This document shows, piece after piece, positions 116 through 23,079 of a stretch of DNA of 64,000 bases. The DNA is taken from assembly GCA_022072025.1 (NCBI GenBank), contig JAJVIP010000018.1:1-64000 (forward strand), given 5' to 3'. Numbering within the stretch: the stretch's first letter is position 1; each line of letters opens with the position of its first letter. The position numbers and the translations under genes are program-made. The notes under the pieces were generated by a model that was given only the letters and a program-made list of their open reading frames with translations, was not told the origin of the DNA and ran no database searches. Source of the DNA: Elusimicrobiota bacterium. GTDB lineage: Bacteria > Elusimicrobiota > Elusimicrobia > F11.

Positions 116-3100
116 ATGATGCCGAAACTGACGTTCGACACCAAAGCGGAATGGGATCAGGCGGTTGAGAACGTCGGCATTGATACCGATGACGCAGGAT
201 GCGTTCTCTCATCTGGCGCGACGCCGTTGGTTTTGGCGGATGATTTTAACGATGGGTCGCGGGATCCGCTGTGGAAAGGTCATATCTCCAATTCGCTGAT
301 CGCGGGCTTTGACCCATCGGGCCCATCCGATGAGCCGCTCGGCGTGACCAATCTGCGAACCAAGCTCGCGCAATCATTCACCTTGCCGATTCCTATTCAG
401 CTGAGCGAAATACAACTCAAACTCCAAGAATTCGTCATCACAACGATCTCGCCTGATTTGATTGTGGAGATCCGAGACGACGACAGCGGTAAGCCCTCGG
501 GGAACATCTTGGCTTCTCGCACGATTGCCTACGCAAGCCTGACCCCGATCAACGGGTGGACGGTGTTTGATTTTCCCGATCTCCCTCCGCTCCCATCCGG
601 CCAAAAGTTGTGGATCGTCTTCACGACCAATCCCATCGGCTCATCCGGCGAACACATCAATTGGCTCTACGATCTATCCCAGGATCTGCCCGGACAAAAC
701 CTGATGTTCCTCAACGGAAGCACAGGGCAATGGAATACGCAATTTGTTCCGACCCATGATTTTTACTTCCGGTTAAGCCGCGCCATCGACTTAAACCCAA
801 AGCCGACCGAGGCGGGCGGTTATCTTAGTTTCGAGTATCAGAACACAAGCGGCTCCGGCGAGCACATCCACATGATCCGCGACGTCGCGCAAGGGGATTG
901 GGAGTTGGAATGCCGGTTTCGCCTGCGGCGCTTGGCTCCGATATTCAACTCGGGACAATTTGTTTTCGGAATACTGCAAGGCACACGAAGTGTTCTTGAT
1001 GGGGCGCCGCGGACCGCGAAACTTCTGCACGAGTTTCGTTTCAATACCCAGAATAATTTCAATGTGAGCTACGACGCTCGCATGGTGGACGGGAGCGGAA
1101 CTATTCATACCTCTGGTTCCGGGACATGGCCGAATATCAATGTCCAAAACGGCTTCCTCGCCAACGACACGCACATCTTCAATCTCAAAGTCATGCGAGT
1201 GGGCGGCGGCCTTAAATATCTGCTTTACCACTCGGATAATCCAGCTAACATCTTGTTGGAGACGAACGTCTCGCCCAACGTTAGGAATCTTGGCGGAGAC
1301 ATCTTCTTTGATATCGGCTCCACTTCGCTCTTCAACTCGTCGTTCGGCGTCGCCTTTGATCTTGATTACCTAAATCTCAACTCTCCGCCGGTGGAAGTCC
1401 CAACGGGATTCTTGCGGTTGCGCCATAGCTTTGGAGTGAACACAAAGCTCGAAAACTTTGAGATCCGGCGGCAGATCCCCGTGGTTGGCGACAAAGTCGA
1501 ACTTCAGTTTCGCTCAGGGAACACCATCGCCGAGTTAGACGCGGCCGCGTTCGGATCCATTGTGACCACTCAACCGGGATCGTTTGACCCTGGCAATCCA
1601 CAGAACCTTTACGAGAAGGCGATTCTCAACATTCCGCAAGCCAAGTTTTTTGAGACAAAAGTTTTGCTCACGAAGGCGAGCCCGTCCCCAATACTCGAAC
1701 TATACAGTCTCGAATTCACACCGGAATCGACCCCCGCTCCCGAACCGGAGGAGACGAAACCTGTGCTTACCTATCGACGAGTTATTGACTCCAATTCCGA
1801 TTGGGGCCGCGCCGTTGAGAAATCATCCTCCATCGCGATTGTGAACGGCATGGCGACGCTGTCGCCTGTTTTCCAAGACTTGTTCGACGCCTTCGTGATC
1901 GGTTCGGATTGGACGGTCTATCAACGAAACGCCAATGTGTTTTCGTCGCTGGGTTTTTTAAGGATGAATATCTTGAGCGGCGACGCCGATGCCATCCTTG
2001 TGAAAACCAGTCCGATTCCCGCCGCTTTCAACGCGACGGTGCGTTGGAAGCCAGAAGATATCTCCGCCATGCCGAACGGCGCGATGTTCAATATTTTCTC
2101 GGTATTCAACGGCGCGACGTTACCAGTGCCAAACGATATTCGCGTCGGCGGCTTAGGAACATCCACCACCCACCACACCATCATCATTCGCAGAGCAAAA
2201 GGAAGCGACGGCTCTCATCGGTTTGGGCTTGTAGCCTGCCGGTCTGATGGCGTGTTTGTGGGATGGAATCAAACGTCGCAAACGTGGGTGCCCGGGGCCG
2301 GCGATCAAGTAATCCCGGCCGGCAAGGAAGCGACTCTCTGGTCGTTTGAGATTTCTGTTGTCGGCGGCGTGTTAACCATCAAGGCCAAGGACGACCAGTC
2401 GGTCATTCGGTTTGACACCAGCACACAGCCGCTCAATATCAAAATTAACGACAACCAGCGGTGGCTGGTGCTGGGCGACAGCGACTTGTCCGAAATGCCT
2501 TCCGGCACAACGCAACTCGTTGATTCCATCGAAACGGATATTCCGACGAGCGGAGCATCGAGTGGGTTCGTTCGTTTCCGAGAATCGCTTGGAGCGAAGG
2601 CGAAACTGGGAACCATCAAAGTCATTCCCTCGACGCTGATCCAAACCGATCCCGCTCCCATTGCCATTAAGGCGCGTTCCGCCGACACGCTCACGGATCT
2701 CGTCGACGCGGCGTTCAAGGAGTCAGGACAGTTTGTGCCAAGCGTTTTTGGGAACGAGATCAACTTGGACGTGCCGCCGTGCGCGTATATCGAAGTCGAA
2801 CTCAATTTGTTCTCCCAGTCGCCGGGTCCAGAGATCCAGTTTCTATCGTGGGAGATCGAACCGCTCATCGATGACACACCGCTTATTCTCTCGCTTGACG
2901 CCATCACGCCAGACGCCGTTGCCGTCTCATCCTCGGTCGGCGCCGCCCAACCAGAAAATCAATCCTCAGTTCCAAACGTCAAGGACGGCGATCCCAACAC
3001 TCAATGGGTTTCCACAACGGGTTTGGAGGGGTTTGGGATTTCATGGTCGCTGACGTTGGGGTTTAAAAAGGGAACGGTGTTTTTCGAGGAGATCATCGAC

Positions 3101-3652
3101 ACGTTGATTCTTCGTAACACCAATTTCAAAAAAATCACGATCACTCTTACCGAACTCAACTCCAATAATTCTGAAACGGTTTTTTCAGGAGAGCTGCTTA
3201 CGTCCGACGCGATCATCACGTTTCCGCCCAAACTAACCGCGCAGATCATTATCGCCATCGAGACAAGCCAAACCCCGAACGAGCAAAAGACGTTGGGCGA
3301 GATTTACGCGGGGCGGCTTCTGGTGGCGTTGCCCAATTTCACGCGCTACGAGCCGAAACGGGAGCTGGTCGAGTCCGGAACTCTGCGAACTCTCGGCGGC
3401 AAGATCGTGGCTTTTCGTGGCCGCGACAAATATATGGGCCGCTGGACGGTGGAGCAGGTATCGAAAGAACTCAAGGATATCCTCGAAGAGACGTTTAAAA
3501 CGAACGCCTTGGTGACGTTTTGGCCAGAGCCGAAATTCCGAACGCGAGATTTATTCGACGTGGCGTGGAAATTGGAAGAGATTCCGTTCCCTTACACCGA
3601 TTTATTCAAAACCGCCGGTCACACCATCGAAGCGGAGATGACTGAAGTATAG
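116..3652 (+). CDS. Large phage tail/adhesin-like protein with two duplicated modules
   Basis: This 1178-residue protein is beta-rich and has no signal peptide or transmembrane segment. Two long modules can be aligned by eye. Residues about 8-540 open with DTKAEWDQAVEN and residues about 551-910 open with DSNSDWGRAVEK; each closes with a related block (FLRLRHSFGVNTKLE versus FVRFRESLGAKAKLG). Residues about 925-1058 resemble a discoidin (F5/8 type C) fold (DGDPNTQWVS). The last 120 residues are different and may be the attachment part. Position before an amidase and a holin-like gene suggests a virion tail, baseplate or receptor-binding protein, which is inference. An in-frame TGA just upstream restricts the start to ATG 116 or 119; no Shine-Dalgarno is visible. 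A secreted carbohydrate-binding protein is an alternative. Confidence 0.7.
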   Translation: MMPKLTFDTKAEWDQAVENVGIDTDDAGCVLSSGATPLVLADDFNDGSRDPLWKGHISNSLIAGFDPSGPSDEPLGVTNLRTKLAQSFTLPIPIQLSEIQLKLQEFVITTISPDLIVEIRDDDSGKPSGNILASRTIAYASLTPINGWTVFDFPDLPPLPSGQKLWIVFTTNPIGSSGEHINWLYDLSQDLPGQNLMFLNGSTGQWNTQFVPTHDFYFRLSRAIDLNPKPTEAGGYLSFEYQNTSGSGEHIHMIRDVAQGDWELECRFRLRRLAPIFNSGQFVFGILQGTRSVLDGAPRTAKLLHEFRFNTQNNFNVSYDARMVDGSGTIHTSGSGTWPNINVQNGFLANDTHIFNLKVMRVGGGLKYLLYHSDNPANILLETNVSPNVRNLGGDIFFDIGSTSLFNSSFGVAFDLDYLNLNSPPVEVPTGFLRLRHSFGVNTKLENFEIRRQIPVVGDKVELQFRSGNTIAELDAAAFGSIVTTQPGSFDPGNPQNLYEKAILNIPQAKFFETKVLLTKASPSPILELYSLEFTPESTPAPEPEETKPVLTYRRVIDSNSDWGRAVEKSSSIAIVNGMATLSPVFQDLFDAFVIGSDWTVYQRNANVFSSLGFLRMNILSGDADAILVKTSPIPAAFNATVRWKPEDISAMPNGAMFNIFSVFNGATLPVPNDIRVGGLGTSTTHHTIIIRRAKGSDGSHRFGLVACRSDGVFVGWNQTSQTWVPGAGDQVIPAGKEATLWSFEISVVGGVLTIKAKDDQSVIRFDTSTQPLNIKINDNQRWLVLGDSDLSEMPSGTTQLVDSIETDIPTSGASSGFVRFRESLGAKAKLGTIKVIPSTLIQTDPAPIAIKARSADTLTDLVDAAFKESGQFVPSVFGNEINLDVPPCAYIEVELNLFSQSPGPEIQFLSWEIEPLIDDTPLILSLDAITPDAVAVSSSVGAAQPENQSSVPNVKDGDPNTQWVSTTGLEGFGISWSLTLGFKKGTVFFEEIIDTLILRNTNFKKITITLTELNSNNSETVFSGELLTSDAIITFPPKLTAQIIIAIETSQTPNEQKTLGEIYAGRLLVALPNFTRYEPKRELVESGTLRTLGGKIVAFRGRDKYMGRWTVEQVSKELKDILEETFKTNALVTFWPEPKFRTRDLFDVAWKLEEIPFPYTDLFKTAGHTIEAEMTEV

Positions 3653-5389: not shown

Positions 5390-6283
5390 TTATTTCGAGA
5401 ATCGCGGATGGTGTTGAAGGGTTTCTCTTAAGAAACTCACGTCGACGTGCGAGTAAATCTGGGTCTGCCGGATGTCTTTATGCCCTAAAGCAGCCTGAAT
5501 TCCTCGGAGATTGGCCCCGCCCGCCAACAAATGCGTCGCGAACGAATGCCGAAGCTGATGAGGCGATACGCGTCCCTTGATGCCGGCCCGATTCGCCCAC
5601 CGTTTCAAAAGCCACCAAAATGTTCCTCGGCTGATCGGTTTTCCTTTGGCGCTCACGAACACGTGCGGCGATACTATGTTTCGTTGTTTATTTCTCATTC
5701 CCATGTAATGTTGAAGCGCATCACCGAAATTTTTCCCGAAGGGAACAAGACGATCCCGCCCTCCTTTGCCTCGGCGCACACGAATAAAACCTTCCTCGAA
5801 GTTCACGTCGTCGGTTTTGAGATTGACCAATTCGGAAACGCGCAGACCCAGATTGTAGGCGGCGTCGATCATGGTTTGCGTTCGCAGAGTTTTGAAGGAA
5901 ACGGTGGTGATCGGAGCCAGAAGCGCGTTCATTTGGACGACGGACAATGGTTCGGGAATAATGTGATCGAATTTCGGGAGTTTGAGCGTGGCGGTTGGAT
6001 CGCTGGCGAGAAACTTCTCTGAAAAAAGGAACCTGTGAAATTGGCGAACGGCCAGCGCCAAATGAAACACCGAACTTGGTTTGAGTCCCGCTCGTTGCCG
6101 CGCTCCGATGTACGCCACGATGGTTTCTTTTTTTGATTCGGCGAGGGACACATTGTTCCGAGCAATGTGGCGGAGATACCCTTCGATCTGTATTCGGTAG
6201 GCCGACTGGGTCGCGGGCGATAAGCCGCGCTCTACACGCAAATGAGTGAGAAACCGAGCCAGGTGGCCGACGCTCTCCGTCAT
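5390..6283 (-). CDS. Tyrosine recombinase/integrase (XerC/XerD-like)
   Basis: A 297-residue site-specific recombinase with an N-terminal SAM-like DNA-binding domain (about 5-90) and a C-terminal catalytic domain. The catalytic set is complete: Arg in GLRVSEL, Lys in RRGKGGRDR, HQLRH, the second His in LGHKDI, and the nucleophile Tyr in QIYSHV. It is the last gene of a minus operon whose preceding gene overlaps it by ATGA (6280-6283). Being the only recombinase in the prophage-like block, it may be the integrase of that element. A chromosomal Xer-type resolvase is the alternative. Confidence 0.92.
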   Translation of the reverse strand: MTESVGHLARFLTHLRVERGLSPATQSAYRIQIEGYLRHIARNNVSLAESKKETIVAYIGARQRAGLKPSSVFHLALAVRQFHRFLFSEKFLASDPTATLKLPKFDHIIPEPLSVVQMNALLAPITTVSFKTLRTQTMIDAAYNLGLRVSELVNLKTDDVNFEEGFIRVRRGKGGRDRLVPFGKNFGDALQHYMGMRNKQRNIVSPHVFVSAKGKPISRGTFWWLLKRWANRAGIKGRVSPHQLRHSFATHLLAGGANLRGIQAALGHKDIRQTQIYSHVDVSFLRETLQHHPRFSK

Positions 6284-9614: not shown

Positions 9615-11270
9615 TTAGTCAGCATTGACTTTTTTGGAAGTTGATTCTTTGCCGTTGACTGCCGCAATGACAGCTTTTTCTGGTTGCGTCACAAAATGAG
9701 GCGACATGATTTGGATTTTGGCTTCGTTGAACTTGTCCTGAATGTTCTGATGAAGTTTGGAATAGGTCTCAGCCATTTTATTGGGAGCGTCGGTATAGGC
9801 GTTGATCTCATAGGTAACGTAAAAATCATCCAGACTGGTTTGGAGTACAAACGGCTCAGGAGTTGACAGAAGATTTGACGTCTCTTTTGCCGCCGTGATC
9901 AAGAGATCATGGATTTGGCGCCACGGCGCATCGTATCCGATGGAAACTTTGGTGTGGAGGATGGTGCCTTGCTCCTTCGCCTCCGCACTGTAGTTGTTGA
10001 TCGAAGAACTTAAAACAGTTGAATTGGGCAACGTAACTTCAACGTTCTTTATTGTCCGCAATCGCGTTGCAAGAAGATTTTTTTCAAGGACATCGCCGAT
10101 GGTATCACCCACTTTGACGCGATCTCCTGTTTTGAATGGTCTCATGTAAGTCAGAAGAACTCCCGCCATCATGTTGGCAACGGCTGATGTTGATCCGAGC
10201 GAAAGCAAGACTCCCAGAAAAACAGAGACTCCCTTAAACGCAGACGAATGCGAGCCAGGTATGTAAGGGAACAGCATTATCACGGTTAAAGCCAAAATTA
10301 GGAAGCGCGTAATCTTATAGGTGGTGTCAGCCCATTCCGGGTAAAAACCGCTCAAAACAATCCGTCCTCGTTTGATTTCATTAAAAAGCATCCTCACGAA
10401 CTTAAGGACAAATCGGACGAGAACAGCCGCAACTGCGATTAAGAACAGGTTTGGCAAATAGTTCAGAATAGAAGCGCCGATCGATTGGAGCGGATCAAAA
10501 ATATATTCGAGGAGTTTGTCCGCCCAATTCCGGGTCTGAGGGAAGAAACTAAATACCAGTGGAATGTAAAAATAAAGGAGAACCAGCGTCACGGTCGCTC
10601 GGATCAAACGCGCCAAGCTCGTCAAAAGACTGACGATCTGTTCGGCTTTCAAGAGTTCGATCTGCTGAATCCGAACGTTTTGGATTTGACGGCCTTTCAA
10701 TGAGTCGATGCGGCGGTAAAGAATGGGAAACAGGCGCCGAAGAAGAAAAAGGAGAAGCGCCAGCACCAGCGTCGCGACAGAGGTGTAACCGATTGACCAG
10801 AGCAGGTTCTTAAAGCTGTGCGTTTGCCGGTAATCGCGGATGGCTTGCTTTATAACCTGCGCGTTTTGATTGGCGAGTTCTTCAATTGAAAGGCCGCTGG
10901 ACTTGGCGTCTTTCGCGGTAATCGACATGAGAACGCGATCGCCGAGCACGATGTCCATTGTCCCCTCGCCGGAAACGATCTCGATATTTTCAGGGGAAAT
11001 GGAAGTGTCTTTCGAGATCTTGATCAGCTTGTCGGAAATCGCTTTTGCCCTCTCTTCCGCCGAAAAGGAAAACATCCGTTCACGAACATGAAAGATTGGT
11101 TTTCCGTCAAAGAACACCGGCGCGCCGGTTGCTGCTTGGGCGGACCGTTCTTTATTTTCGGCGGTGACATGGGAGGCGACACTGATACTCAGCAAAAATA
11201 GGCACAGGTAGAGAAGGAGTGGCCGCATCGGCCGTTTGGTGATCTCAGTGTTTGTAAAGTGGATTCTCAT
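9615..11270 (-). CDS. MscS-family mechanosensitive channel
   Basis: A protein of about 551 residues. A signal-like segment (MRPLLLYLCLFLLSISVASHVTA) leads into a periplasmic domain of about 120 residues, then four or more membrane spans. The pore region and MscS beta domain follow (SLGSTSAVANMMAGVLLTYMRPFKTGDRVKVGDTIGDV...TRLRTIKNVEVTLPNS). The family opens under membrane tension to release osmolytes. ATG 11270 and ATG 11228 are both possible starts; neither has a clear Shine-Dalgarno, and the second fits the signal peptide better. The start region lies just past the stop of the PPK2 gene, so the two may be cotranscribed. Confidence 0.88.
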   Translation of the reverse strand: MRIHFTNTEITKRPMRPLLLYLCLFLLSISVASHVTAENKERSAQAATGAPVFFDGKPIFHVRERMFSFSAEERAKAISDKLIKISKDTSISPENIEIVSGEGTMDIVLGDRVLMSITAKDAKSSGLSIEELANQNAQVIKQAIRDYRQTHSFKNLLWSIGYTSVATLVLALLLFLLRRLFPILYRRIDSLKGRQIQNVRIQQIELLKAEQIVSLLTSLARLIRATVTLVLLYFYIPLVFSFFPQTRNWADKLLEYIFDPLQSIGASILNYLPNLFLIAVAAVLVRFVLKFVRMLFNEIKRGRIVLSGFYPEWADTTYKITRFLILALTVIMLFPYIPGSHSSAFKGVSVFLGVLLSLGSTSAVANMMAGVLLTYMRPFKTGDRVKVGDTIGDVLEKNLLATRLRTIKNVEVTLPNSTVLSSSINNYSAEAKEQGTILHTKVSIGYDAPWRQIHDLLITAAKETSNLLSTPEPFVLQTSLDDFYVTYEINAYTDAPNKMAETYSKLHQNIQDKFNEAKIQIMSPHFVTQPEKAVIAAVNGKESTSKKVNAD

Positions 11271-11280
11271 AAAAGAAAGG

Positions 11281-12069
11281 TCAGTAAACTTCCGCAACGA
11301 ACCGGCGTCGACTCAAAGATTTCTGATCGTTGTAACTCTTCTTCTTTGATCTTTTGGGCAGTTTGATTTTAGTCTGCTTCAACTTTTTATAAGGAATAAG
11401 TGAAAGAAGATGGGTGATGCAGTTGAGTCGCGCCCGTTTTTTGTCGTCGGAGCGGACAATATACCAGGGAGCGTATTTTGAGTCGGTCGCTTCAAGCATC
11501 CGATCCCTCGCCTTTGAATATGCGTACCATTGATGGAAGGATTCGATATCCATGGGGCTTAATTTCCACTGGCGCAGAGGATCCTCGATCCGAGCGCGGA
11601 ACCGGCGCTCTTGTTCTTTTTGACCGACCTCGAGCCAAAATTTGACCAGAATGATTCCCGCATCGACAATCTGCTTTTCGAACAGCGGGCAGATTTCCAG
11701 GAAGCGGTGGTACTCCTTTTTTGAGCAAAAGCCCATCACATGCTCCACGCCCGCGCGGTTATACCAGCTACGATCAAAAATCACGATCTCACCGGCGGCA
11801 GGAAAATGCGCGATGTATCGCTGCATGTATAGTTGCGATTTTTCACGGTCCGACGGCGACGGCAACGCCAACACTCGGAATACACGAGGGCTCACCCGCT
11901 CCGTTATGGCTTTGATCGTCCCTCCCTTGCCGGCTGCGTCTCTTCCCTCAAACACAACAATAACGCGGAGTCCCTTGTGTTTCACCCAAGCCTGCAAATG
12001 GCAGAGTTTCGCCTGAAGGCGTCGTAATTCCTTCTCGTATTTTTTTCGTTTTAGACGCGGCTTTTCCAT
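11281..12069 (-). CDS. ppk2: Polyphosphate kinase 2 family protein
   Basis: A 262-residue kinase using polyphosphate to phosphorylate nucleotides. Visible motifs are Walker A (FEGRDAAGKGG), Walker B with following aromatic block (IFDRSWYNRAGVEHVMGF), and the lid (RFRARIEDPLRQWKLSPMD). Size and motifs fit a single-domain PPK2, which makes NTP from NDP or NMP. The C-terminal 40 residues are Lys/Arg-rich and not conserved. It lies between the exporter permease and MscS on the same strand. Together with phosphoketolase, acetate kinase and glycogen enzymes it suggests flexible energy storage. Confidence 0.9.
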   Translation of the reverse strand: MEKPRLKRKKYEKELRRLQAKLCHLQAWVKHKGLRVIVVFEGRDAAGKGGTIKAITERVSPRVFRVLALPSPSDREKSQLYMQRYIAHFPAAGEIVIFDRSWYNRAGVEHVMGFCSKKEYHRFLEICPLFEKQIVDAGIILVKFWLEVGQKEQERRFRARIEDPLRQWKLSPMDIESFHQWYAYSKARDRMLEATDSKYAPWYIVRSDDKKRARLNCITHLLSLIPYKKLKQTKIKLPKRSKKKSYNDQKSLSRRRFVAEVY

Positions 12070-12072
12070 GGG

Positions 12073-13194
12073 CTAAGAGGCCGACAAGCTTTTCCGGAAC
12101 TGCGTGGACGCAATGACAAAGCAAATGCTTCCGATGATCAATTCCGCGACAAACGGACGCCATACAATTTCAATACCGGCCCCGCGGAAAAGAATCGCCT
12201 GAGCGAACCGAACAAAGTGCGTCGTGGGAGCGGCTTGCATGACGAACTGAATAAACTCCGGCATACTTTGGTACGGCGTGTTCCCTCCGGAGAGCATTTG
12301 AAGCGGAAGAATAACGAGGATGACCAGGAGTCCCATTTGAGGCATGGTGCGCGCAATCGTGCCGAGGAGTATACCAAGAGAGGTCACAGCGAACAGATGA
12401 ACAGAAACTCCTAGCAAAAACAAGGGAATAGAACCGGCAATCGGCATGCTTAAGAATCCTTGCACAACAATTTTAAGCGAAAGCGCCGCCATCACCAGCA
12501 CCACCAAGCCGTTCGACCAAATCTTCGCCATCATCACGTCAAAAGGTTGAAGCGGCATCACCATCAGATGTTCCAATGTTCCATGTTCACGCTCGCGCAT
12601 GAGCGCCGCCCCCGTTAGGATTACACACAGAAGTGTAATCTGATTGACCAACTGAACAATCGAGCCGAACCAAACTGTGGTCTGCGTTGGGTTGAAGAGG
12701 TAACGGACTACGAGATTCTTTAACGAAGTGGTCGGCAGAAGATTCTTATGCAGATAGGTGTTGACCTGATCCATCACGATCGATTGAACATAGGAAGCGC
12801 CAAGAAAAGCTTGACTCATGCGAGTGGCATCAATGTTGAGCTGCACCTTTGGATTTAAGCCCCGTGTGAGGTCGCGGGCAAAGTTTGGCGGGATGTCCAA
12901 AATGAACGTGTAAATGCCGGTGTTCATAGCGGGGTCGACATCCTTCGGTTGAATAACCACGGCCTGCTGGAAAACGGGAGGAAAAAACGCGGTTGAGATT
13001 CGCTCGGAAAGCGGAGAGTGATCTTGATCAACCACCGCGATCGGCGCGTTGTTGACATCGCCGGCCATGCCTTTGGATCCGCTGCTCACCGAAACCGTGA
13101 ACGCGTAAAGAATGAGCGCAATCATGACCGGATCTCGCCAGAGGCTGATCAGCTCCTTAATTCCAAGATGGTAGATATTCGCCAATCGTTTCAT
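12073..13194 (-). CDS. ABC-2 type exporter permease (YhhJ-like)
   Basis: A 373-residue membrane protein with one N-terminal span, a large periplasmic domain (about 45-175) and five C-terminal spans, the usual ABC2_membrane_3 layout. [19 protein letters not shown] is the conserved cytoplasmic loop before span 3. The start overlaps the stop of the ATPase-permease fusion by ATGA (13191-13194). It therefore pairs with the permease half of that fusion to form the full membrane channel of a tripartite exporter. Confidence 0.9.
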
Positions 13195-15962
13195 GATTCC
13201 TGCTTTTTGAGTAATAGCCAGGATATGGCCGTAAGAATGGGAATAGAAATGGCGAGCGCCCAGAATGGTTTAGCGAGATCCGCAAATCCCAGAGCTTTGG
13301 TAAACACGCCTTGGGCGATCGTCATAAAATGAGCGGTCGGGTAAATTTTCCCAATCAGGAGCGCTCCGCCTGTTAGAGCGGTGACGGGCTGGGTGAGTCC
13401 GGAAAACTGCGTGGCCGGCATAATCGTCGCGATTGCGGTGCCGAAAATGGCCGCGATTTGCGTGCTCGTAAAGGCCGACATTAAGAAACCGATGCTGGTC
13501 GTACACAGAATGTAGAGGATTCCTCCGACCAAAAGCGCAAAAGGGTTTCCTTTGAGCGGTACACCGAATATCACGATGGCCATGAGTGTCAGCACAAAAA
13601 GATTGATCATGGCCAAGGCCACATAGGGAAGTTGTTTGCCGAAAATAAATTCCATTTTGGTCACAGGGGTCGCATAAAAATTCGTGATCGAACCAAGCTC
13701 TTTCTCACGAACCACGCCCAAGGCCATGAGCATCGCGGGTATCAGGACCAGCAAAATGGGGATGGTGGCCGGAACCATGGCCACAACGCTCTGGAAATCT
13801 TGATTGTAGAGGTAACGCATTTCCAAAAGCGGTTTTGTTCCGGACTCAACTTTGCTGATTTCAACAGGCGCTGTCCGATCGACATAATCGTTGTGAAGAT
13901 TCTGGATATAACCGCCGACGCTCTGTGCGCGAGAGGGCATCGATCCGTTCACCCATGCGGCGATTTCTGTTGGGACGCCACGCCGCAAATTTTTCCCAAA
14001 TTCCGAGGGGATCTCGATGGCCAAGTCCAAACGTCCCGTTCGCATCTCTCGTTCGAGATCGTCTTGACTTCCGACATCTGGTTTGCGAACAAAATAGGCG
14101 GAGCCGGCGACATTATCAGCGTATATCAAGCTGTCCTGGCTTTGATCGTGGTCGAGCACTGTGAAGGCGATATTGTTCACATCCATGTTGATGCCGTAAC
14201 CGAGAACAAGCATCATAATGATCGACCCCGCCAGCGCAAAAGTGAGTCGAATGGGATCGCGCCTTAGTTCTAGGAACTCGCGATAGGCATAGCCGAGCAA
14301 ACGCCGGAAACTGAATTTTTCGGTATGAGCGCTATGAGCGGCGCTCGGCGCGTTTGCTTCCTTCTTTTCAGATGGTGCTGGCTCCGGTGATTTTGCGGTT
14401 GGGGATGGCGGCGCAGCGCTCGCTGCCGCCTCTTCAAGATATGTGATGAAGGCTTCTTCTAAATTTTTCGCGCCTTTCGTTTGTACGAGCTTCGCTGGAG
14501 GATCGCTGGCCAACACTTTTCCGGCGTGCATGAGAGAAATTCGGTCGCACCAACCCGCTTCGTTCATGAAATGCGTGGAAACGAATATGGTCACTTTGTC
14601 CTTTCGAGACAATTGGATCAACAGCTCCCAAAATCCTTCGCGCGCCACCGGATCCACGCCGGAGGTCGGTTCGTCCAAAATGAGCAGCTCCGGTTTATGA
14701 ATCATCGCCACGGCCAACGACAATCGTTGACGGTTTCCGAGCGGCAGGCTCTCCGCCAAATCATTCATAAAATCTCTGAGCCCAAATTGCTGGGCAAGCT
14801 CTTCGATGCGCGGTTCGATCTGTTCTTTGGGAAGATCGAAGAGTCGCGCGTGCAGCACCAGGTTCTGCCGCACCGTGAGTTCGGCATAAAGGGAAAAAGC
14901 CTGCGACATGAAGCCAATGCGTTTTCGTGTTTGAATATCCTTCCCAGTGACCTTGTCTCCAAACATAAATGCGGTCCCTTCACTGGATGGCAGAAGACCG
15001 GTCAACATTTTCATTGTGGTTGTCTTACCACAACCGTTGGACCCTAAAAATCCAAATATCTCACCCTTCGGAATTTCGAAACTCACATTATCGACGGCGA
15101 CAAAATCGCCGAAGCGGCGAGTGAGTCCCACCGCCTTGATAGCCGGTTTCCCTTCTGAAGCGACAGCGCGAGGCGGAACGACGAGTTCCTTATGTCCTTT
15201 GCGCTTTTCCTCAGGCAACAGACGAATAAAGGCCGCATCCAAATTATCCGCTCCGACACGGGACTTAAGTTCGCTCGGAGTTCCCTCCGCCAAGACTTTT
15301 CCATCGTCCATGGCCACCAGCCAGTCAAAACCGTCCGCCTCGTCCATGTAGGCGGTGGAAATTAAGACGCTCATGCCCGGTCGATCTTTGCGAATACGCT
15401 TGATCAAATCCCAGAATTGACGGCGGGATAACGGATCGACGCCGGTGGTTGGTTCATCGAGAATTAAAAGATCCGGGTCATGAATCAACGAGCAACAGAG
15501 TCCCAGCTTTTGTTTCATGCCTCCGGAAAGTTTCCCGGCTGGACGCTGCTTGAATTGCAGCATTCCGGTGCTCGCCAAAAGATCATCTATCCGACGTTCC
15601 CGCTCTACTCGATCCTGGCCGAAAAGCCGCGCGAAGAAATCGATGTTTTCAAAGACCGAGAGCGTCATGTAGAGATTTTTTCCAAGACCTTGCGGCATAT
15701 AGGCAATGCGCGGACAGACATCTCGGCGATGACGCGCGTCTTTGATATCGCCGCCGAGAACTTGGGCGTCGCCTTTCTGCACCACTCGAACCCCAGCGAG
15801 GATCGACATCAGGCTGGATTTTCCAACCCCGTCCGGGCCCAACAGACCGACCATGCAGTCGGCGGGGAAATTCAGCGTGATGTTGTCGAGGGCGCGCTTG
15901 CGACCATACGAGTGCGACAGGCCAGAAACACTCGCGACGTATTTAGTGTTTTGGCTGGGCAT
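13191..15962 (-). CDS. ABC exporter fusion: two ATPase domains plus ABC-2 permease (RbbA/YhiH-like)
   Basis: About 923 residues from ATG 15962, which lies inside the end of the adaptor gene (20-base overlap). ATPase 1 has [12 protein letters not shown], signature LSGGMKQK and [11 protein letters not shown]. ATPase 2 has [12 protein letters not shown], a degenerate signature ([10 protein letters not shown] in place of LSGGQ) and [12 protein letters not shown] proline/alanine-rich linker leads to an ABC-2 permease with a periplasmic domain and six spans. Architecture and neighbours match the E. coli YhiI-RbbA-YhhJ set, thought to export small hydrophobic compounds. RbbA has also been linked to ribosomes, which cannot be judged here. 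Confidence 0.92.
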
Positions 15963-16971
15963 ATTCGGCCGGAACGACAAGAAATTCAGGCCAGGCGGCG
16001 CTCTTATCAAGCCGCACATAACCCATTCCGGGTAAGCCGGTCTTAACCTTTAAGCTGTGTTGCCTAAGCAGGTCGGGATCAACGTTGATCTTTACTCGGA
16101 ACATCAATTTCTCACGTTCCGATTGTGTCTCGACAAGTTTGGGCGTGAACTGCGAGCGAGTTTCAACATACGTCACTTTGGCGGGAATGGGGCGGTTTGG
16201 CAGCGCATCGAGGAGGATCCGGCCCTCGGCGTCCATTTCGATTTTGCCGGCATCGTTTGTTGGCAAATAAAATTGCATGTAGACATCCGCAAGGTCAAGG
16301 ACCGTAAGTATGCTGTCTTTGGCATTAATGACTTCACCCGGTTCGCGAGATCGGTACAAGATTCGACCGTCAACGGGCGAGAATAGATCGGTTTCCGATA
16401 AATTGACTTTGATGGTGTCCGCCTTGGCGACAGCGGCTTCTATGGCCGCGTCCGACTTGACCATATCCGCTTGAGCGGCGGCCAGCGCCGAATTCGCCGT
16501 GGCTTCTTTGGTTTCGTCCTGTTGGAGTTCTTGCAGGGAGATATCCTGGGTCACGTAGAGTTTCTTCGAGCGGGCGAGATTCTGACGGGCGAGCAATAAC
16601 TCGCTTTTTCGTTGAGCCACGAGGGCAATTGACGCTTTTTTCGATTGCTTCTGCCCGTCAACATCGGCCAAAGCTTGCCGCAGTTGAGCATCCAGGTCCC
16701 GCGTGTCGAGTCGGACGAGCTTCTGCCCTTTCGTGACGAGATCCCCTTCGCGAGCGAGAATTTCCTCAATGCGACCAGAGAATTTCGAGACGATTTCAAC
16801 CGTGTTGGCCTCCATACGTCCGTTGCTACCGGCAAAGCCGGGCGGCAATTTCGGCTTGGAAAGCCACTTCCAGAGAAAGAACCCGCCGACCGCTACGACG
16901 AGGGCGACGAGGCCGATCAAAATCTTTTTACGCTTGGGCGATATATTTTTGCTGGGTTGAGCTTCACTCAT
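15943..16971 (-). CDS. HlyD/EmrA-type membrane fusion protein (exporter adaptor)
   Basis: A 342-residue periplasmic adaptor. It has an N-terminal membrane anchor ([18 protein letters not shown]), a split biotinyl-lipoyl domain ([36 protein letters not shown] and [22 protein letters not shown]), a long helical hairpin between them (about 85-175), and a beta-barrel domain. It bridges the inner-membrane ABC exporter to the TolC-like protein encoded just upstream. The stop overlaps the start of the ATPase fusion. Confidence 0.92.
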
Positions 16972-16974
16972 AAA

Positions 16975-19353
16975 TTAAGGCTCCTGTTGTCCTTCTTGGT
17001 TCACAAACTCCTGAAGGCGTTTCATTGTGTCATTAAGTTTTTCCCGGTCGATAAGAAAATTCGACTGTCCTAAACTACGCTGCAAGTTCATGAGATCCGT
17101 CAGCGCCACAAACACCGCGTTGGAAGCCCTCTGATCCGCCTCCAGGCTGTTGTTTTGCGCATCAAGCAGATCAACGATCGAGCGGGTTCCCCGAGCGTAA
17201 TTCTTGCTGACCAAAGAGTAATTACGTTGCGATGCTTTGGCGGCATCTTGAGACAATCGGATGGACGGATAGCTGGCTTGTAATGCGTGCAGATTATCGC
17301 GAATCAACTGTTCAATGTTTTGACTCAGCGAATCTCGCTCGGCGCGGAGTTGACTCACAATTGCCTTGGATTTGGAGATTCGCGACAATCGGCCACCGCC
17401 TTCCAGAATAGGAAGTGAAAGATCAACTCCGAGTTGCCAGTAATCTTTGTCTTCTAATTGAAGATTACTGGAAGAGAGTCTTTCCTCATCGAAAACCTGA
17501 TAACCCAGTCCCGTTAACGAAAGGTTTGGCGCGATAAGGCTCCATTTTTCGGATGACAGTTGCCGCTCTTCCGCTTGGACGCGAGCATCCAATTGCGCCA
17601 AATCGGGCGACATCCGGAGCCCTTCTTTAATGAAAAATTGAATCAAGCGCTGAAAGGCTTGATCGTTGTCGACGGTTTTGAAAAATTCCGGCCGACTGAT
17701 CAGAAGTTGAGGATTATCCATTCCGGTTTTCTGGAGCGGATAGCGATCCGCCAACGGCCGGTGCAAAAGAACATTGAGACGGTCATGCGCCTGTTCAACG
17801 CCGGTTTTAGCGGAGAGCACTTTCACCCGCGCGGTGGCGATTTCACTTTCCCAACGCGCAACGTCGGAAGCGTCGGATTTTCCCGCCGACACCCGCGACC
17901 GAGCCAGGCGCAAATTTTCTTGCGCCAATTGCACTCCGTTTTTCTGAACCTCAAGTTGATTTTGAGAGATGAGGACATCAAGAAACTTCGTTACCGCTTG
18001 TTGGACGATATCGAGTTCGAGAGCCCGTTGCTGCGCTTCCAGTGAAACTTGCAATTTCTTTTGGACGGAAAGATTGGCCAGCGCGCTTTCAGAAAAAATA
18101 ACTTGATTGAGTTTAAGCGAACCGGATATGGTGTCTTTTGCCAAGAGGCCGCTGGTGATATAGGGGTAGTCGTCGTTACGAGCCGCATAGTTCAACGTGC
18201 CTTCCAATTGAGGAAAAAGCACGGACCGGACGACTTTGACTTCGCTTTTTCCGGCTTTGACTCCGAGTTGTCCGGCGATAACATCCAGGTTGACGCGCAC
18301 GGCTTCCTGGGCGGCGGATGAAATGGTGAGTTCAGTCCCGGACATTTGAAACTCTTCGTTGACCAGGACCGCGTTTTGAAGGACGTCCCACTTCGGTGCA
18401 AGGCCAATCGCCCGCGCCGTTTTCATGTTAATAGCCAGTTGTATTTTTCGTTCAAAGAGGACCGGCTGGCTCTCGGCCTTTTCGCCGCGCATCACCGCGT
18501 GGACATTAAGTCCCATCTGCCGAATCCGATTGTCCAAGTCGCCTGATGCCACATTGGACGCCAACAAGCCCGCGAAAAGATCGTCTTCGCCGGTGGCGCT
18601 AAACGACGGCAACTTTCGCTCCAGCAAGGCGTCGATCAAATCCTGCCGGTTTTCGCGGTTCAGCCGCGGAAGCGGTGCCACCAAAACCGCCTGGACATCC
18701 GAAGGAATCTTCGCGGCAAAGTCCGACTCTCCGGAGTGGGTGACAAATTTAATCTCGATGCCCGCGTTGCCGGCCTGTTGAATCAACATCTGAGATTGGT
18801 TCTGAATCGACTGATACAAAGCCTCGTCCACAAGGACCGCCAAGCGTTTAAAGGAGGCGACACTCCGGAAGCTTTTGATGACATCGGCAAACCGAGTTTC
18901 GGTGGTTAGATAATTGAGGTTGGATATGCCGCTTCCCTCACCCTTTTGGGGTAGCTCGGGCTTGAGCGCATTCGTGACAAAGGGAGCGAATGTGGACTTT
19001 CGAAAAGTTTTCCGCTGGGCAGCCTGCTGACTGGCCGCAAATCCGAGAACCAGCACGGCATCAACATTTCGATCGTTGTTCGCCTGGTCAAGCGCCGCCT
19101 CAATTCCCTTGGCCGACCAATTCCCGTTCCATTGTTTCGTCGGAGGCGCGTTGATCTGAAATTCGTTTTCAGTCAGTGTCGTTAGTTCTTTCAAAAACGC
19201 CGATTTGATTTCTTCGGTTTTTTCGGCGGGACCGTCGGTAACGATGCCCACGGTGAACTTTCTTTCTGCGAACGCGGAAGTGAGGGGCAGCAAGCCGATA
19301 AACATGGCCCAAACAAAGACATGGGCACGTAGTAGTTGCGGGGTTCGATTCAT
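16975..19353 (-). CDS. TolC-family outer-membrane factor fused to an N-terminal periplasmic binding-protein-like domain
   Basis: A 792-residue protein with a signal peptide (cleavage near residue 29). Residues about 33-335 form a type 1 periplasmic-binding fold of the ABC_sub_bind kind (KFTVGIVTDGPAEKTEE, VDAVLVLGFAASQQA, RLAVLVDEALYQS, AVLVAPLPRLNR). Residues about 345-770 are a duplicated outer-membrane efflux domain with long helices and strand regions (LKLNQVIFSESAL, LPILEGGGRLSRI, NYARGTRSIVDLLDAQNNSLEA). Common TolC proteins are 420-490 residues, so the fusion nearly doubles the length. It is the first gene of the exporter operon and the gap to the adaptor is 3 bases. Confidence 0.85.
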   Translation of the reverse strand: MNRTPQLLRAHVFVWAMFIGLLPLTSAFAERKFTVGIVTDGPAEKTEEIKSAFLKELTTLTENEFQINAPPTKQWNGNWSAKGIEAALDQANNDRNVDAVLVLGFAASQQAAQRKTFRKSTFAPFVTNALKPELPQKGEGSGISNLNYLTTETRFADVIKSFRSVASFKRLAVLVDEALYQSIQNQSQMLIQQAGNAGIEIKFVTHSGESDFAAKIPSDVQAVLVAPLPRLNRENRQDLIDALLERKLPSFSATGEDDLFAGLLASNVASGDLDNRIRQMGLNVHAVMRGEKAESQPVLFERKIQLAINMKTARAIGLAPKWDVLQNAVLVNEEFQMSGTELTISSAAQEAVRVNLDVIAGQLGVKAGKSEVKVVRSVLFPQLEGTLNYAARNDDYPYITSGLLAKDTISGSLKLNQVIFSESALANLSVQKKLQVSLEAQQRALELDIVQQAVTKFLDVLISQNQLEVQKNGVQLAQENLRLARSRVSAGKSDASDVARWESEIATARVKVLSAKTGVEQAHDRLNVLLHRPLADRYPLQKTGMDNPQLLISRPEFFKTVDNDQAFQRLIQFFIKEGLRMSPDLAQLDARVQAEERQLSSEKWSLIAPNLSLTGLGYQVFDEERLSSSNLQLEDKDYWQLGVDLSLPILEGGGRLSRISKSKAIVSQLRAERDSLSQNIEQLIRDNLHALQASYPSIRLSQDAAKASQRNYSLVSKNYARGTRSIVDLLDAQNNSLEADQRASNAVFVALTDLMNLQRSLGQSNFLIDREKLNDTMKRLQEFVNQEGQQEP

Positions 19354-19382
19354 AAGAATTCCATTACACCAAGCGGCTCTGC

Positions 19383-21794
19383 TTATTTCGCAGGTACCGC
19401 TTCGTTTGTGCGCGCTCCTTTTTCAAGACGATCTTTTAGCGGGGCCCATTTCCAATTGCGGATTTCCGGCATATCCTCGCCGTGTTCCGCAATGTAGTGC
19501 TTGTGTTCGACCAGTTTGTCGTGAAGGATTTGTTTTAAATGGGCGCCTTTCGAGCCGATCTTGGGAACACGATCGATCACGTCCGCGGCAAGATGAAACC
19601 GGTCCAAATCGTTCATCACCACCATGTCAAAAGGAGTGCTGGTGGTCCCTTCCTCTTTATAACCGCGGACATGCAGATTTGAGTGATTGGTGCGCCGGTA
19701 GGCCAAGCGATGTATAAGCCAAGGGTAACCGTGGTAAGCAAATATAATCGGCTTATCCGTGGTGAAAAGTTGATCGAACGTTTTGTCCGGCAACCCGTGC
19801 GGGTGTTCCGTGGGTGGTTGTAATTTCATGAGATCGACAACGTTGACCACGCGAATCTTGAGATCCGGGAACTCCTTGCGAAGAATTTGAACGGCCGCCA
19901 GCGTTTCCATGGTAGGAACGTCTCCGCAACAGGCCATCACAACATCGGGTTCCGAGCCTTGATCATTGCTGGCCCAATTCCAAATGCCGATTCCTGCGGT
20001 GCAATGCTTGATCGCCGCTTCCATATCGAGCCATTGGTGAGACGGCTGTTTTCCTGCCACCACAACATTGACGTAATTGCGGCTTTTTAAGCAGTGATTT
20101 GTCACCGACAGCAGTGTGTTGGCGTCCGGCGGCAAATAGATGCGAACCACTTCGGACTTTTTGTTCACAACATGATCGATGAACCCGGGATCTTGATGAC
20201 TAAATCCATTGTGGTCTTGTCGCCAAACATGAGAGCTCAACAAATAGTTGAAAGAAGCAATAGGCCGGCGCCACGGAATATGACGTGTCGTCTTCAGCCA
20301 CTTGGCGTGTTGATTGAACATGGAGTCGATGATGTGAATAAACGCTTCGTAACAGTTGAAGAACCCATGGCGTCCCGTCAAAAGATAGCCTTCCAGCCAT
20401 CCTTGACAGAGATGTTCGCTCAAAACTTCCATCACGCGTCCATCGGGTGACAAGTTTTCGTCCTTCGGCAAAATTTCATCCATGAATGTTCGTTTCGTCA
20501 CTTCAAAGATCGCCGCCCATCGATTGGACGCGGTTTCATCGGGGCCGAACACTCGGAAGTTCGTCATGTTCATTTTCATGACATCGCGCAAGAATTTCCC
20601 TTGCACGCGCGTGGCTTCTCCAATCACGCCGCCGGGAGCAGGAACATCAACAGCGTAGGATTTGAAATCAGGCAAGCGCAGTTCTTTGAGCAGCTGTCCT
20701 CCATTTGTATGGGGATTTGCGCTCATTCGCTTGTCGCCTTTCGGGGCAAGCGCGGCCAATTCGGATTTCAGTTTTCCACTCTTATCGAACAGCTCTTCTG
20801 GTTTGTAGCTTTTCATCCATTTTTCGAGGATCTTAATGTGGTCCGGTCGATCCATTTCTCCCATCGGCACTTGGTGAGAGCGGAACGTGTCTTCGACGAG
20901 TTTTCCATCAACTTTATTGGGACCTGTCCAGCCTTTGGGAGACCTGAGAACAATCATCGGCCAAATCGGACGGGAGGGAGATTTTTCTTTTCGAGCTCGA
21001 GATTGAATCGCCTTGATGTCGCGAACGACCTCGTCCATGGTCTGAGCCATGGCTTGGTGCATTTTCATCGGATCATCGCCCTCAACAAAGTAAGGTTTAT
21101 GGCCATATCCTTCGAGCAAGGACTGGAGTTCTTTCTTCGGCATGCGCGCCAGAACCGTTGGATTGGCGATTTTGTAGCCGTTCAAATGGAGAATAGGGAG
21201 CACCACGCCATCCCGTGCAGGATTAAGAAATTTATTTGAATGCCAACTTGCGGCCAGAGGCCCTGTCTCGGCCTCTCCGTCGCCAATGACGCAGGCCGCA
21301 ATCAGGTCGGGATTGTCGAAAACGGCTCCGTAAGCATGGACCAAAGCGTATCCCAGTTCGCCGCCTTCATGGATGGAGCCGGGCGTTTCCGGCGCGACAT
21401 GACTCGGCACTCCGCCAGGGAAGGAAAATTGTTTGAATAATTTTCGCATCCCTTCCTCGTCCTCAGTGATATTGGGATAGACTTCTGTGTAGGTTTTTTC
21501 CAAATAGGCACAAGCGACAAGGCTGGGCCCCCCGTGGCCGGGGCCGGTGATGTAAATCATGTTCAGGTCATGCTCATTTATCACTCGGTTGAGATGCACG
21601 TACAGAAAATTAAGTCCGGGGCTGGTTCCCCAATGACCAAGCAGGCGGGGTTTGATATGTTCTTTGACGAGTGGTTTTTTGAGTAACGGGTTATTGAGGA
21701 GATAGATTTGCCCCACCGATAAATAATTTGTGGCCCGCCAGTAAGCATCCATTTTGGTGAGCAAATCTTTAGAAACGGGTGACTTTCTTTTCAT
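19383..21794 (-). CDS. xfp: Xylulose-5-phosphate/fructose-6-phosphate phosphoketolase
   Basis: An 803-residue ThDP enzyme of the usual phosphoketolase length. It splits xylulose-5-P or fructose-6-P with phosphate into acetyl phosphate plus glyceraldehyde-3-P or erythrose-4-P. Visible family segments include [19 protein letters not shown], the ThDP-binding [20 protein letters not shown], and [37 protein letters not shown] 21794 follows AGGAGG. The acetate kinase gene lies 25 bases upstream on the same strand, so acetyl phosphate can go directly to acetate and ATP. Confidence 0.97.
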
Positions 21795-21819
21795 GTAAGT
21801 GATCCTCCTGAAAGTTGAC

Positions 21820-22986
21820 TTAAACCTTCTTCAAAAACAAAAAAACCGAACGAGCAATTTCGATTTCCTCGTCGGTATGAATAACGCGAACGGCTACCCG
21901 TGAGTTATTTTTGGATATAAGGGGTCTGTTGGATTTATTTCTTCGCAGATCTAACGCCACTCCCAAGGGAAGTAGCCAACGACCAATCCGTTCTCTTACA
22001 TCCGGAGAATTTTCTCCGATCCCGCCAGAGAAAACCAAGGTTCCGAGTCCACCGAGGGAAATTGTCAAAGCTCCAATGGCTTTTGCTATTTGATAACAGA
22101 AATGATCAATAGCTTCGCCCGCTCGACGGTCGCTTCGCCGTCTGCGAAGCAAGTCCCTCAAGTCAGAGCTGGTTTCGGAAATGCCAAGAAGCCCAGATTT
22201 TTCGTTTACCATATTGTGAAATTGTCGTAAAGTGAACCGTTTTACTTTAATCAGATACGACACGAGCCCGGGATCCAGATCTCCAGATCGTGTGCTCATG
22301 GGAACGCCGGATGCGGGAGTAAAGGACATCGTCGTGTCTATGCTTTTGCCGTTTTTTACGGCTGTCAGGCTGCAGCCGTTTCCAAGATGCGCGACGATCA
22401 CATTCGCTTTTACGTCTCGACGTTTTTCGGCTCGAGCCAGTTCACGCATTAGATAAGCGCAAGAAATTCCATGGAACCCATAACGTTCAATTCCCCAACG
22501 GGTCAGTTGGCGTGGAAGAGCAAGTCGTTTGGAACGGTCCGGCATGGTTCGGTGAAATGCGGTGTCGAAGCAGGCGATTTGAGGAACGGCGGGAAAGCGA
22601 TGTTGAAGTTCTTTGACAAGGCGAATTTGAGTCGGCAGGTGTTCCGGCATAAAAAATCGAAGCCGGTTAATTTCATTGAGAATAGAAGGCGTCAACAGCG
22701 TTGGTTCACTTCGATGTTGCCCGCCGTGAACGATCCGATGACCAATCGCAAGCAATTGATGATCGCCGATCATCGTTTTCAACTGCCCAGATAACTTGGT
22801 GATTATTGCTCGAGGATCGCTTTTATTGGTGCGGTCCAGATGCCCGCTGGCTATGCGCTCGAGCCGATGGTCAGCACCAAATAGCGCAAATTTAATCGAA
22901 GACGATCCGGAGTTGATAACGAGTGCTACAGGGCTTGACGGATTGATGCCTTTTGTTAGCGCTTGATGGATCTCCTTATTATTCAT
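21820..22986 (-). CDS. ackA: Acetate kinase
   Basis: A 388-residue ASKHA kinase making ATP and acetate from acetyl phosphate. Motifs seen: [14 protein letters not shown] at the N-terminus, [75 protein letters not shown], and [14 protein letters not shown]. It forms a two-gene operon with phosphoketolase. The 93 bases between its start and the divergent dehydrogenase gene must hold both promoters. Confidence 0.97.
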
Positions 22987-23079
22987 CCTTTTACCGATAG
23001 CAAGTCAATGCTCGAATGTCCAGTGGACTTTGGGCTAATAGGAAGCGATGGATGAAATTTTGTAGATCGGTTCAAATTT

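Follow-up and report, generated by a model that had tools for sequence, protein, structure and literature searches.

The window, a 64,000-nucleotide stretch of contig JAJVIP010000018.1 of an Elusimicrobiota bacterium, contains on its minus strand a 792-aa ORF with an ATG start and a signal-peptide-like N-terminus. The N-terminal ~310 residues of the protein represent a divergent ABC_sub_bind domain, and the C-terminal ~450 residues represent an outer-membrane efflux protein (OEP). The parts of this fusion gene and the pump genes that follow it are given below.

16975–19353, minus strand: fusion gene, signal peptide + ABC_sub_bind-like domain + TolC-type outer-membrane factor, 792 aa
19267–19353, minus strand: predicted signal peptide, residues 1–29, ...LLPLTSAFA, without a lipobox cysteine (from the sequence)
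18358–19266, minus strand: ABC_sub_bind domain (class I, TrpX-like), approximately residues 30–332 (Pfam matches of homologues, Foldseek, hhalign)
18331–18357, minus strand: linker of ~10 residues (333–341), up to the position of TolC residue 1 (alignments)
16978–18330, minus strand: TolC-type outer-membrane factor with OEP repeats, residues 342–792 (Pfam, phmmer)
15943–16971, minus strand: HlyD/YhiI-type periplasmic adaptor (profile match)
13191–16019, minus strand: RbbA, two ATPase domains and an ABC-2 permease, fused (NF033858, 1483 bits vs. cut-off of 1050)
12073–13194, minus strand: YhhJ-like ABC-2 permease, the second permease half (profile match)

The C-terminal half of the fusion contained two OEP repeats (Pfam OEP, E=1.4e-38), which span the TolC body as is typical of TolC-type factors: in a phmmer search against TolC structures, residues 370–766 of the query aligned with TolC 29–409. 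Thus, this half aligns across nearly the whole body of TolC (TIGR01844, 1ek9), although its TIGR01844 score of 127.7 bits is below the curated cut-off of 225, and the fusion has ~310 additional residues before TolC residue 1. It was not of the NodT/OprM type (TIGR01845, 84 bits vs. cut-off of 210); cysteine was absent from the whole window fusion protein, which therefore lacks the lipidated N-terminal cysteine of that type. We infer that the N-terminal lipid anchor of NodT-type ducts hinders the addition of such a domain. Helix H1 of outer-membrane factors is part of the belt that encircles the barrel, the equatorial domain, and variation in this domain alters adaptor pairing and function (PMC8277102). 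Since TolC residue 29 was aligned to window residue 370, TolC residue 1 is located at ~342, while the hhalign alignment of the ABC_sub_bind domain stops at ~332; the linker between the two is therefore only ~10 residues long.

The window alone would not have revealed the binding domain, because Pfam recognized no binding-protein family in the N-terminal half of the fusion protein, and PF04392 had no match there, nor anywhere in the window genome at E ≤ 0.001. Three homologues (L004, L006, and L007), described below, exceeded the PF04392 cut-off (34.8–38.6 bits vs. 25.9). An hhalign comparison of a nine-sequence profile of the N-terminal domain with solved ABC_sub_bind proteins covered the whole domain (96%, E=2.3e-9). 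In a Foldseek search with the predicted model of the window domain, 3lft, 6hni, 6hnj, and 3lkv ranked first (best E-value of 2.4e-8); the best five matches were all solved ABC_sub_bind members, with E-values from 2.4e-8 to 1.6e-6 and low TM-scores of 0.33–0.38. The model itself was of low confidence (pTM 0.45; 0.27 for the predicted full-length protein). Being modest, the model and its TM-scores support the fold class, not the geometry of a pocket, and on this predicted structure the domain would have a class I periplasmic binding-protein fold. The joining of an ABC_sub_bind N-terminus to an efflux duct, proposed earlier from the window sequence, was thereby borne out.

TrpX-type proteins (3lft, 3lkv, and CD0873, 6hni) have the same class I fold and align with the N-terminal domain over the full length of the profile; their C-terminal iN..tA..lGi motif is present in the fusion as well. 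However, they pair with an importer, whereas the domain of the fusion is joined to the duct encoded by an exporter operon. Structures of ABC_sub_bind/TrpX-type proteins are available (PMC6816091), and the amino acid ligand of TrpX is held by Thr, Asp, and Asn (PMC9382623). The corresponding ligand residues (Thr, Ala-Thr, Asp, and Asn) were not retained across the nine fusion proteins: aligned positions 105, 151, and 229–231 vary and no TDP motif is present, with a local alignment that is uncertain here. In the L021–L023 subgroup, the TFAPF and APLP motifs were lost as well. Six positions—V38, D40, T121, P124, N147, and D176—are invariant in all nine domains and specific to this family; some of them are located in loops that likely face the cleft. 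The original prediction was to be given up if the domain were cleaved off or lacked a pocket in all homologues. Neither a second signal peptide nor a hydrophobic segment that would point to cleavage was seen in the linker on inspection of the window sequence, but the canonical ligand signature is missing from all nine proteins.

The window encodes an RbbA-type ABC-2 tripartite exporter, with RbbA above its cut-off, an HlyD adaptor, and a YhhJ-like permease, as expected for the complete export operon with an ATPase–permease fusion that had been predicted. The 5' end of the RbbA ORF overlaps the adaptor gene, and the true start is therefore probably further inside. Judging by gene order and profile matches, this YhiI-RbbA-YhhJ exporter has the fusion as its outer-membrane component and dedicated duct. 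It leads the four pump genes, as proposed, but not the directon: its start is 29 bp downstream of a phosphoketolase gene (19383–21794), which is preceded by an acetate kinase gene, and genes for PPK2 and MscS are located downstream of the pump on the same strand. The genes of acetate kinase and phosphoketolase, the pump set of four, and the genes of PPK2 and the MscS channel are clustered at 9615–23000 of the minus strand, and apparent genes of 2-hydroxyacid dehydrogenase, glycogen phosphorylase, and glycogen debranching enzyme are divergent to them. Ancylobacter plasmid pC has HlyD-RbbA-permease genes and, divergent to them, a gene of phosphoketolase; this arrangement is only suggestive of a link between the pump and phosphoketolase. 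A gene of a tyrosine recombinase (phage integrase family), located further downstream of the pump genes (5390–6283), is a possible sign of mobility. A 1178-aa ORF at 116–3652 of the window had no Pfam match at 1e-5.

Homologous fusions were sought among genomes of Campylobacterota and of the window's phylum, and in other lineages through plasmids. A tblastn search of plasmids with the N-terminal 313 residues found Sulfuricurvum kujiense pSULKU01 (41% identity over 97%), in which the matching gene, named 'ABC transporter substrate binding protein' in RefSeq, also encodes a fusion (~790 aa) within an operon of TetR, fusion, HlyD, rbbA, and permease genes. Scanning of contigs with two strict peptide patterns yielded two loci in two Sulfurimonadaceae genomes; five further intact copies and one frame-shifted copy came from searching the order to which these belong with a profile. 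The eight intact homologues are 35–40% identical to the window protein and, where named or placed, belong to Campylobacterota. Their operon order is TetR, fusion, HlyD/YhiI, RbbA, and YhhJ, often with LpxR next; the TetR gene was assigned by profile in three of them and by annotation in one. Every intact fusion found, the window's included, is located directly before YhiI-RbbA-YhhJ, as the duct of that exporter. The frame-shifted copy (G539, L024, 2793–10338) is disrupted in the duct and transporter genes, by either assembly error or decay.

Among 299 genomes of the order holding the Sulfurimonadaceae matches, the fusion domain was found in 7 and RbbA in 12; six RbbA operons there had neither the fusion nor a visible adjoining duct gene. 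Within the window's class, the fusion was present in the window genome only (235 genomes) and RbbA in 3 of 231, while a single-protein survey of the class and phylum gave only weak matches, all in proteins without the fusion. On proteobacterial plasmids, the adaptor-RbbA-permease block was accompanied by a plain NodT-type duct or by no duct.

Adaptor, ATPase–permease, and second permease are ordered as in the enterobacterial YhiI-RbbA-YhhJ system (NF033858 RbbA), but the operon of Klebsiella has no duct gene, whereas the fusion operons encode a dedicated duct together with a binding-protein domain. The YbhG-YbhF-YbhS-YbhR pump under the TetR-type regulator CecR is related, and a TetR-type gene also stands in front of the fusion operons of the relatives. 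In Betaproteobacteria (plasmids of Nitrosomonas sp. sh817 and Thauera humireducens), a dedicated outer-membrane factor likewise heads the HlyD-RbbA-permease genes and, in Nitrosomonas sp. sh817, comes after TetR; however, this duct is of the NodT type, 466–468 aa long, and lacks the N-terminal domain of the fusion. In the library searched for ABC_sub_bind domains and outer-membrane efflux proteins, no paper on the fusion architecture was found, and almost no functional literature on the RbbA exporter. In the RbbA tree, the window protein grouped on the proteobacterial side (support 100/100), so the histories of duct and transporter may be separate. Transfer of the whole operon from Campylobacterota, which was also considered, is unsupported by this position.

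The two halves of the fusion evolve differently. In three close relatives, dN/dS was 0.18–0.25 for the N-terminal domain vs. 0.054–0.057 (about 0.055) for the duct; across the nine proteins, 24 of 306 positions of the domain and 95 of 425 positions of the duct were invariant. By these ratios, the domain is maintained by purifying selection yet changes at about four times the rate of the duct, a pattern that would also fit a loosely constrained spacer.

Outer-membrane ducts are usually viewed as passive conduits without substrate choice. The architecture described here suggests that, in an RbbA-type ABC exporter, the duct has acquired a module for periplasmic sensing or assembly. The duct would be a TolC-type trimer, each subunit of which has an N-terminal ABC_sub_bind domain; attached at H1 on the equatorial belt, the three domains would form a collar outside the barrel. 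Our preferred, still tentative reading is that this collar serves in sensing or assembly: a ligand or the cognate adaptor would engage the class I cleft and thereby stabilize or open the assembled duct, and the domain would probably not carry cargo into it. We favour sensing or assembly because histidine kinases have adopted ABC_sub_bind domains as sensors, on which the proposal is modelled; one genome from the order of the fusion relatives encodes such an ABC_sub_bind-PAS-HATPase sensor kinase (L054, 1252–3486). That the domain gates the duct, as the original prediction offered in its second variant, is possible. The most specific form of this proposal, a ligand-gated export duct whose three belt domains detect a compound in the periplasm and then open or lock the pump, placing efflux under allosteric control at the outer membrane, is rather doubtful. 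A conserved family of ducts with a binding-protein fold makes it testable whether sensing or control of efflux can take place at the outer-membrane component. Adaptors of the fusion operons are ~332–348 aa long (except for a 361-aa ORF with an unsure start) vs. 329–343 aa in Campylobacterota operons without the fusion; given such similar lengths, the rest of the pump shows no adjustment to a collar, which speaks against our reading.

Second in our ranking, and less probable than a sensing or assembly role, is a degenerate, ligand-free fold that acts solely as a structural collar: it would stabilize the trimer, select the adaptor, or provide an anchor to peptidoglycan or to parts of the outer membrane. 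The loss of the pocket residues of the known family, the fourfold faster change of the domain, and the missing TFAPF and APLP motifs of L021–L023 are consistent with it, whereas the six invariant positions, some in likely cleft-facing loops, and the full length of the domain in all nine proteins argue against it. Third and unlikely is the capture and hand-off of substrate put forward in the original prediction, in which periplasmic cargo is bound by the domain, handed on to the adaptor or transporter, and exported through the duct that carries this domain. The fold is indeed that of solute-binding proteins, and the gene adjoins a complete exporter. However, the barrel of TolC is closed along its sides and its entrance is at the periplasmic tip, far from the equatorial belt to which the ~10-residue tether holds the domain; this geometry makes the feeding of cargo into the duct unlikely. 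The amino-acid-binding signature is lost as well, its residues being replaced and variable, and other operons of the same RbbA type encode a plain duct or none. Highly improbable is an artefact, either a frame or assembly error merging two neighbouring genes or two proteins split by processing: one relative is broken by frame shifts, but the junction has no signal or hydrophobic segment, and the same continuous frame recurs independently in eight other genomes or plasmids, which refutes assembly error and, at the level of sequence, confirms the fusion as real and not due to chance.

Returning to the favoured sensing or assembly role, the genes next to the operons of the relatives bear on the cargo. 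A gene encoding LpxR (lipid A 3'-O-deacylase) was found directly after the permease gene in five Campylobacterota fusion operons (L019, 2595–3590; L020, 2447–3439; L021, 2445–3455; L022, 2747–3757; L023, 2631–3641), and a gene of outer-membrane phospholipase A was located near the fusion operon in L004 and L007. These neighbours hint at envelope lipid damage or amphipathic compounds. From the adjoining lipid A and phospholipid enzyme genes, we guess that the pump probably exports a small compound that is amphipathic or perturbs the envelope. The window has different neighbours, namely the acetate kinase, phosphoketolase, PPK2, and MscS genes described above. Genes of phospholipase A and acyloxyacyl hydrolase were also found near an RbbA operon of Thauera that has no fusion (L026).
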